64,000 bases of DNA from Salvelinus alpinus. Taxonomy: Eukaryota; Chordata; Actinopteri; Salmoniformes; Salmonidae. Below are positions 9,973 through 12,900 of this stretch, one piece after another. The notes beneath the pieces are model-generated. The model was not told the DNA's origin, searched no databases, and saw only the letters and a program-made list of their open reading frames with translations. Numbering within the stretch: position 1 is the first letter of the stretch; each line of letters opens with the position of its first letter. The position numbers and the translations under genes were made by a program. The stretch lies in contig NC_092089.1 of the NCBI RefSeq assembly GCF_045679555.1, positions 3,107,152-3,171,151 on the forward strand, written 5' to 3'.

Positions 9973-12900
9973 CTAGAACACAGCAGTTTTCAACTCCACC
10001 CCTTCCTTCTCTGGTGCTGGGGGCTGCGTCCACACCTCCGTGGTGGGCTTGGTAGAGAAGCTGTCTATGGGGGGGTTCGTTGGAAGGTCAGGCAGGTGCC
10101 ATGCGATGAAGACCAGATACATCCCAGAGCCCACCATCCCTCCCAGCAGAGGAGCCATCATGGGAACCCAGAACCAGTAGTTATAACACCTAGAGAGACG
10201 AGGAGGAGGGAGGATTAGTTACCAAGTCTGCAAGTCAATCAACTTCACTTTAACAACTCGTGCCCAGTTCCAAATTGAAAAACGGTGTCTGTGTGTCCGT
10301 CATGTGCCTGGTTTAGCACATTGGTATCCGCTGGTAGATGTTCCTATAGACATAAAGTGCCTTACGGGCACACTTGGCACAACAGGCGGCTGGTGGCACC
10401 TTAATTGGGGAGAACCGGCTCATAGGAATGGCCGGAATGGAATAAATGTAACAGTATCGAACACATCAAACACATGGTTTCTATGTGTTTGATTCCATTC
10501 ACTCCATTCCAGCCATTAATATGAGCCATCCTCCCCTCAGCAGCCTCCTGTGCGTGGCACACTTGGCACCAACACAAACACACAAAGCAGATCTAGCTCT
10601 AGTCCAGGAGTAGTCCACTCCTTTCATATGGTTCACTCTTCTCTCCCGTGCACTTAACTGACCCCCTGACCACTTCCTGTAATACCTGACATGTTGCACA
10701 CCTGCTGACTCAGGTCAAAATGTGTTTGTGTGTTAGAAGACGTACGTGAACACCTCAGTGTTCCACCTGCTGACTCAGGTCAAAATGTGTTTGTGTGTTA
10801 GAAGACGTACGTGAACACCTCAGTGTTCCACCTGCTGACTCAGGTCAAAATGTGTTTGTGTGTTAGAAGACGTACGTGAACACCTCAGTGTTCCACCTGC
10901 TGACTCAGGTCAAAATGTGTTTGTGTGTTAGAAGACGTACGTGAACACCTCAGTGTTCCACCTGCTGACTCAGGTCAAAATGTGTTTGTGTGTTAGAAGA
11001 CGTACGTGAACACCTCAGTGTTCCACCTGCTGACTCAGGTCAAAATGTGTTTGTGTGTTAGAAGACGTACGTGAACACCTCAGTGCCCCAGCCGGCGGTC
11101 AGTGTCAAGAGGCGTGGCCCCAGGTCACGGGCAGGGTTTATCGCTCCGCCGCAATTGGACGACATCGACATGCCGATCCCCAGGACTACCACGGCAACGA
11201 TGGGCGGGATCAGAGCGTCGGGGGCAGGACTATTCTTCTGGTCATCCAATGGGAGAATGCAGAGCATCAACATGGCAGTGCCCACCACCTATAGAATATG
11301 AGAAATTTGTGAAACCAGGAAATACAGGACGAGCGCTTGGGACGATAAGGTTCTATCTGCAAAAAGATGATTCTGAGATAAAGTTCCAATCCCTCATTGG
11401 TTTGAATGGTGTCAACACTGTTATCTTGTATTCTTTTGAACTTAACATGAATTGGGTTATTTAGGGTACTATATAGGTAGAGAACATTGAACAGAACAAG
11501 GCTATGTCAATAACTCAGGGTTAGGGTTAGGTTTAAAATCAGATTTTAAGAAGAGAAATTGTAGAAAATAGGCAGGGTTTATGACTTTGTGGCTGTGGCG
11601 GTTAGTGACGAAGGCCAAACGCTCTGAGGAAGGCCTTGAGGCCGATACGTAAAGTTATTAAAGAGCAGTGATACTATCAAGATCAGTGTGAGGGTTTCTT
11701 CTTTTTCTCATCTTATTCAGCGTTTACCATTCACCTGCAACAAAGATGGCTCAGATGAGTGAGTGCCTTTTGAGTTAGTGACAACCCACCATCTTCCGTT
11801 CCTGCTTCATACTGTATCATATTGGTCTGACCTGGTCTAGGATGCTGCTGCTGAGAGATAGGTGCTCTCCGGGATAGGTGGCAAAGATGGACGCCGTCTC
11901 ATTAGCCCCATACACTGTCAAATTCCCTCCACTGAAGTCCATGATAGCATCTGACAGAGAGAGGGAGCTGGTTGTTCATGATAGCATCTGACAGAGAGAG
12001 GGAGCTGGTTGTTCATGATAGCATCTGACAAAGAGAGGGAGCTGGTTGTTCATGATAGCATCTGACAAAGAGAGGGAGCTGGTTGTTCATGATAGCATCT
12101 GACAGAGAGAGGGAGCTGGTTGTTCATGATAGCATCTGACAGAGAGAGGGAGCTGGTTGTTCATGATAGCATCTGACAGAGAGAGGGAGCTGGTTGTTCA
12201 TGATAGCATCTGACAGAGAGAGGGAGCTGGTTGTTCATGATAGCATCTGACAAAGAGAGGGAGCTGGTTGTTCATGATAGCATCTGACAGAGAGAGGGAG
12301 CTGGTTGTTCATGATAGCATCTGACAGAGAGAGGGAGCTGGTTGTTCATGATAGCATCTGACAGAGAGAGGGAGCTGGTTGTTCATGATAGCATCTGACA
12401 GAGAGCGGGAGCTGGTTGTTCATGATAGCATCTGACAGAGAGAGGGAGCTGGTTGTTCATGATAGCATCTGACAAAGAGAGGGAGCTGGTTGTTCATGAT
12501 AGCATCTGACAGAGGGAGCTGGTTGTTCATGATAGCATCTGACAGAGAGGGAGCTGGTTGTTCATGATAGCATCTGACAGAGGGAGCTGGTTGTTCATGA
12601 TAGCATCTGACAGAGAGAGGGAGCTGGTTGTTCATGATAGCATCTGACAGAGAGGGGGAGCTGGTTGTTCATGATAGCATCTGACAGAGAGAGGGAGCTG
12701 GTTGTTCATGATAGCATCTGACAGAGGGAGCTGGTTGTTCATGATAGCATCTGACAGAGAGGGAGCTGGTTGGTCAGTGACAGTTATCATGGCACACTAT
12801 ATCATAATGTCTTACTACTCTGCTACTGAATATGCATGTGACAAGCTGACATGACACCAGTGATTGGTGGGACTGGTGTGTGAGTGTGTCTGACTGACCA

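Follow-up and report, generated by a model that had tools for sequence, protein, structure and literature searches.

Minisatellites that lie across intron/exon boundaries have been described in amphioxus genes under the name "mirages", and regular splicing was reported to be undisturbed in the cases examined (PMC3087553, PMC3902484). The examples in Adh3, troponin C, BflGb6, BflGb9 and PGBD5 consist of boundary-spanning tandem copies, many of them with AG or GT signals, and they affect acceptor as well as donor boundaries; in PGBD5, two such repeats are found within one gene (PMC3087553, PMC3902484). The consequences of repeating a splice site have also been studied in engineered pre-mRNAs, derived from beta-globin, in which the 3' splice site was present twice. 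Whether the upstream copy was followed by 14, 55 or 205 exonic nt, splicing was very inefficient and used the distal site alone (PMC5389562). Since the distal site won despite 205 nt of upstream exon, and splicing was very inefficient, this test does not isolate exon length. A more distant parallel is CeRep25B of C. elegans, an intronic minisatellite near splice decisions that has been linked to alternative splicing; it carries regulatory motifs, whereas copying of the splice boundary itself is not described in the abstract of PMC4039745.

Here we describe two arrays within a single aqp10aa-like gene of Salvelinus alpinus, in a window of 64,000 nt (the whole stretch of DNA that was analysed). 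Both consist of tandem copies spanning an exon boundary, with the AG or GT signal retained, and to judge from the letters they are the same arrangement as the amphioxus mirages, in a vertebrate. As in amphioxus, acceptor and donor boundaries are both affected, and as in PGBD5 two repeats occur in one gene. The host, in contrast to the amphioxus genes, is a vertebrate aquaporin. The units measure 33-37 and 65 bp, compared with 150-160 bp in BflGb6 and 10-72 bp in Adh3, and the 22 decoy acceptors compare with 6 and 3 units in the BflGb6 haplotypes and at most 7 repeats in PGBD5 (PMC3087553, PMC3902484). Serial identical 3' splice sites are shared with the beta-globin constructs, although the upstream exon stub is 11 nt here instead of 14, 55 or 205 nt, and the engineered two-site pre-mRNAs spliced in extract give way to a natural case of 23 sites and 6 sites (PMC5389562). 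No mirages outside amphioxus were found in the open-access literature searched; the aqp10aa arrays would extend the phenomenon from amphioxus to vertebrates. Searches for DNA relatives used two collections not meant for fish: a 19-base degenerate pattern matched seven viral contigs in one, presumably by chance, and a 24-base pattern gave no matches in the genome contigs of the other.

Two splice-boundary arrays in an aqp10aa-like gene

The features discussed are the following:

9973-20432, minus strand: aqp10aa-like gene, ATG to stop, six exons, spliced by hand in silico
20196-20432, 14614-14740, 12899-13036, 11832-11950, 11071-11288 and 9973-10189, minus strand: exons of the aqp10aa-like gene
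11951-12898, minus strand: intron 3, 948 nt, or 148 nt if the first-transcribed decoy is used
11940-12776, minus strand: acceptor array, 23 copies of a CT tract plus GTCAG/ATGCTATCATG, that is, 22 decoys and the authentic acceptor
11832-11950, minus strand: exon 4, 119 nt; the exonic portion of the repeat unit, ATGCTATCATG, corresponds to the first 11 bases of the exon
11071-11288, minus strand: exon 5, 218 nt; the exonic portion of the donor unit, CACTGAGGTGTTCAC, corresponds to the last 15 bases of the exon
10699-11085, minus strand: donor array of 6.0 copies of a 65-bp unit (100% matches), with the authentic exon 5 donor (11071/11070) and five decoys
1611-3554, minus strand: aqp10ab-like decayed tandem paralog, pieces of exons 2, 3, 5 and 6

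Spliced in silico, the gene reads through 351 codons without interruption when translated from the first Met, or 301 codons from the fourth Met, and each of its five introns is bounded by GT..AG. The 301-aa form matches the Pfam MIP family (E=1.1e-43), and both NPA motifs are found in the translation (LNPAV and INPAR). The first three Met residues are at positions 1, 19 and 40, the third therefore 39 residues from the first. The M3 variant of salmonid aqp10aa has an N-terminus shorter by the same 39 residues, and the salmonid gene has an aqp10ab pseudogene downstream, with which it forms the aqp10aa-aqp10ab binary cluster, and DTSsa15-like Tc1 elements close by (PMC7408487). Here too, a decayed aqp10ab-like copy lies downstream and a piece of a Sleeping Beauty type transposase lies within intron 1. 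From the third Met, the decayed copy and the Tc1-type element, we take the gene to be salmonid aqp10aa; the MIP match and these features agree with the identification as aqp10 in the initial annotation. At 10460 bp from ATG to stop, it exceeds the gene lengths of 7941 to 8610 bp in PMC7408487, whose accessible sections describe the cluster without mention of a minisatellite, compared with two arrays here.

The decayed paralog has a frame shift in exon 5, and no match to exon 1 was found in 1611-3554. The end of its exon 3, its intron 3 and most of its exon 4 are replaced by a CT-rich repeat block (2665-3093), which corresponds to the region expanded in the intact aqp10aa. Upstream of exon 3 of the intact gene, the polypyrimidine tract of the acceptor has also grown into a CT-rich low-complexity repeat (13041-13200), so that a third aqp10aa splice site adjoins a repeat expansion.

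Tandem Repeats Finder reports the acceptor array at 11940-12776 with a period of 37, 23.1 copies and 96% matches. With as many as 3 mismatches allowed, the whole window contains 23 occurrences of the 18-mer CTGTCAGATGCTATCATG, every one of them within this array, against 0.09 expected (100 shuffles). The authentic intron 3/exon 4 acceptor is at 11951/11950, and the first exonic bases of the 22 decoys run from 11987 to 12750, leaving 800 nt of intron 3 between the first decoy and the authentic site. The unit sequence is AACAACCAGCTCCCTCTCTCTGTCAG/ATGCTATCATG, with variants that differ from it in the CT tract. The GTCAG splice signal is kept in all 23 copies, as is the core GTCAGATGCTATCATG, and the differences among the 22 complete units are confined to the CT tract. 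This pattern does not decide for or against selection on the decoys, since the tract is itself slippery and few independent changes need be assumed. Unit-by-unit reading confirmed that the copy at 11950 alone continues into GACTTCAG and the remainder of exon 4, as the initial annotation had claimed along with a repeat unit spanning the intron 3/exon 4 boundary of aqp10 and 22 decoy acceptors, which the 23 copies likewise bear out. Two of its details needed adjustment. The unit length of 37 bp is right for 18 of the 22 units after the first copy, while three units measure 33 and one 35; as all of them belong to one haplotype, these lengths represent slippage in the CT tract and not allele differences. 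The array is indeed present within the interval 11832..12776 given for it, but it covers 11940-12776, and exon 4 is limited to 11832-11950, so most of that interval is intron 3.

The donor array, which the initial annotation had not reported, is in the same gene, two exon edges further on. Its unit joins the last 15 nt of exon 5 to the donor (TTCAC/GTACGTC), and the donor signal CACGTACGTC is present in six of six copies, placing decoy donors at +65, +130, +195, +260 and +325. Thus the start of exon 4 is preceded by 22 decoy acceptors and the end of exon 5 is followed by 5 decoy donors.

Site strength and predicted products of decoy use

We scored splice sites with an indicative position-weight score built on general splice-site base frequencies. 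On this scale the authentic exon 4 acceptor reaches 9.98, and 17 of the 22 decoys score equal or higher. Local strength therefore cannot account for the choice of site, which must derive from context beyond the site. By the same indicative score, that of exon 5 ranks last among the five aqp10aa donors (4.82, the others 6.21-10.18), the donor of the decayed paralog scores 10.87, and a stronger donor-like site (7.97) is found at +369, close to where the donor array ends. The donor side looks more fragile than the acceptor side: because the authentic exon 5 donor is weak, the donor array appears likelier to leak, and with the 7.97 site at +369 correct use of this donor is not assured.

With 23 acceptors of near-equal local strength and 6 identical donors, the gene is a natural extreme of the duplicated-splice-site experiment, for which competition constructs were reportedly made by Reed and Maniatis in 1986, with single-molecule work following later. 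It could reveal whether exon context suffices to select the site and whether splicing responds to minisatellite length.

In silico, all 22 acceptor decoys lead to a premature stop, including the seven whose extra length is divisible by three, in agreement with the earlier claim that most decoys shift the frame and that those restoring the length bring a TGA. The resulting stops are 288-1018 nt upstream of the last junction. Splicing from any of the five donor decoys is predicted to end the protein at a TAA just inside the intron (EVFTYVF), 52-312 nt upstream of the last (new) junction. Transcripts with a stop more than 50-55 nt upstream of the last junction are usually subject to nonsense-mediated decay. 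By this rule nearly all decoy-spliced products would be decay substrates, with the first donor decoy borderline.

Masking of the decoys by RNA structure was also considered. Folding of 11900-12060 gave a z of 0.21, with 112 of 200 shuffles folding equally well or better, and folding of 10800-11110 a z of -0.88, with 22 of 100 shuffles doing so; as neither stretch folds unusually, hiding of decoys in hairpins is unsupported there.

Origin of the arrays and choice of splice site

Our preferred reading, to which we assign a probability of roughly 0.74, is that two mirage-type minisatellites on aqp10aa boundaries have grown by tandem duplication and unequal exchange or slippage, that the exon-attached site is used through exon definition, and that the arrays are mostly tolerated passengers. 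Each array would have started as a short tandem duplication that happened to take in the splice site together with the adjoining 11 or 15 exonic nt. Read by eye, the joint of the acceptor duplication (ATCATG/AACAACC) is a close, though inexact, match to the upstream sequence CTGACCAACC, whereas at the donor joint (GGTG/GAACACTGAGG) three bases (GAA) have no match in either flank. The two joints suggest end-joining with little or no homology. Subsequent growth by unequal exchange or slippage would keep one unit attached to the exon, so that an intact site is always retained while decoys accumulate on the intron side; as the exon can adjoin no more than one unit, this placement follows from geometry and does not require selection. 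What would favour the exon-attached site is that no other copy is backed by the full exon with its enhancers or, in the case of the acceptor, by the nearby exon 4 donor. Any decoy use that leaked through would probably be removed by nonsense-mediated decay, the weak donor being the likelier place, and there is perhaps a small leak into mRNA decay at the decoys.

Some published observations bear on this reading. By analogy, prior work on amphioxus mirages and beta-globin duplicates leans towards selection of the exon-attached site over leaky, copy-number-dependent splicing. In Atlantic salmon, a cDNA with the full-length open reading frame of aqp10aa1 was amplified and formed permeable channels in oocytes, and the gene is expressed in pyloric caeca and liver (PMC7408487); this type of gene is thus correctly spliced in one salmonid, a result that concerns the gene and says nothing on the arrays. 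Against the choice of the exon-attached acceptor, the first decoy would shorten intron 3 from 948 to 148 nt, and under intron definition this decoy would be preferred.

The arrays might instead act on the gene, with the array length of each individual determining how much of the aqp10aa mRNA is spliced correctly, by way of competition between the acceptors and between the weak donors and of decay of misspliced products. The decoys that locally equal the authentic site, the premature stops that all of them bring and the weakness of the donor are what such a rheostat would need, and length variation has a precedent in the two BflGb6 haplotypes (PMC3087553). The expression profile of aqp10aa1, the most restricted among salmon aquaglyceroporins, would also fit, although the authors of PMC7408487 attribute it to cis-regulatory change. 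Yet the amphioxus arrays were reported without disturbance of regular splicing (PMC3087553, PMC3902484); we regard regulation by copy number as unlikely. An extended version is rather doubtful: that the 22-decoy acceptor and the weak 5-decoy donor together form a heritable, length-variable rheostat that sets the output of full-length Aqp10aa, a gut aquaglyceroporin, and that the array in addition serves as a store of copies able to restore a damaged splice site by exchange.

Tolerance could also come from relaxed selection, if this aqp10aa copy, like its tandem neighbour aqp10ab, were on its way out. The exon 5 donor is weak and the neighbouring paralog has decayed; pseudogenes are frequent among salmonid aqp10 copies, and the cDNA of Atlantic salmon aqp10aa2 could not be isolated (PMC7408487); but an open frame of 351 codons, GT..AG throughout, both NPA motifs and a strong MIP match make a dying gene improbable. 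It is very improbable that the copy number of one or both arrays is an assembly artefact. Six perfect 65-bp copies are open to over- or under-counting, and the authors of PMC3087553 report aberrant draft assembly of their BflGb6 array. However, the acceptor units, which vary in length as well as in CT tract, are interleaved in a way not expected of a simple duplication error, and the window holds many further arrays of all sizes.

Other tandem arrays in the window

The window is rich in tandem arrays, with 70 rows in the Tandem Repeats Finder output. Splice-like sites were scored, on the indicative scale used above, in 17 arrays picked by hand from these rows, leaving out two-copy, short-period and overlapping rows. 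In several of the 17, such sites, resembling acceptors or donors, recur in series, which speaks against splice-site arrays being special to aqp10aa. One of these arrays, 29 copies of a 39-bp unit (26236-27362), lies within an intron of a minus-strand gene of PDZ type and has 28 strong acceptor-like sites (TTGTTTTTCCACAG) on the gene strand, with scores up to 10.9. It ends about 68 nt ahead of what reads as the next exon, whose edge is not copied. Given such serial sites in other arrays, strings of decoy acceptors look tolerable in this window.

The probability that a random seed placed in aqp10aa straddles a boundary, with at least 5 nt on each side, is 0.027 for 37 bp and 0.054 for 65 bp, jointly 0.0014, figures computed after the fact that are not a clean test because both arrays were picked for straddling. 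The array with the most copies in the window (27 bp, 134 copies, 58746-62370) is open in several frames and contains 236 donor-like sites on the plus strand by the same indicative score. Beside the exons of the PDZ-type gene, a stop-to-stop frame of 1122 codons (28533-31898, minus strand) includes in-frame coding arrays of 30-bp and 36-bp units (TTHTPLVEQN repeats).
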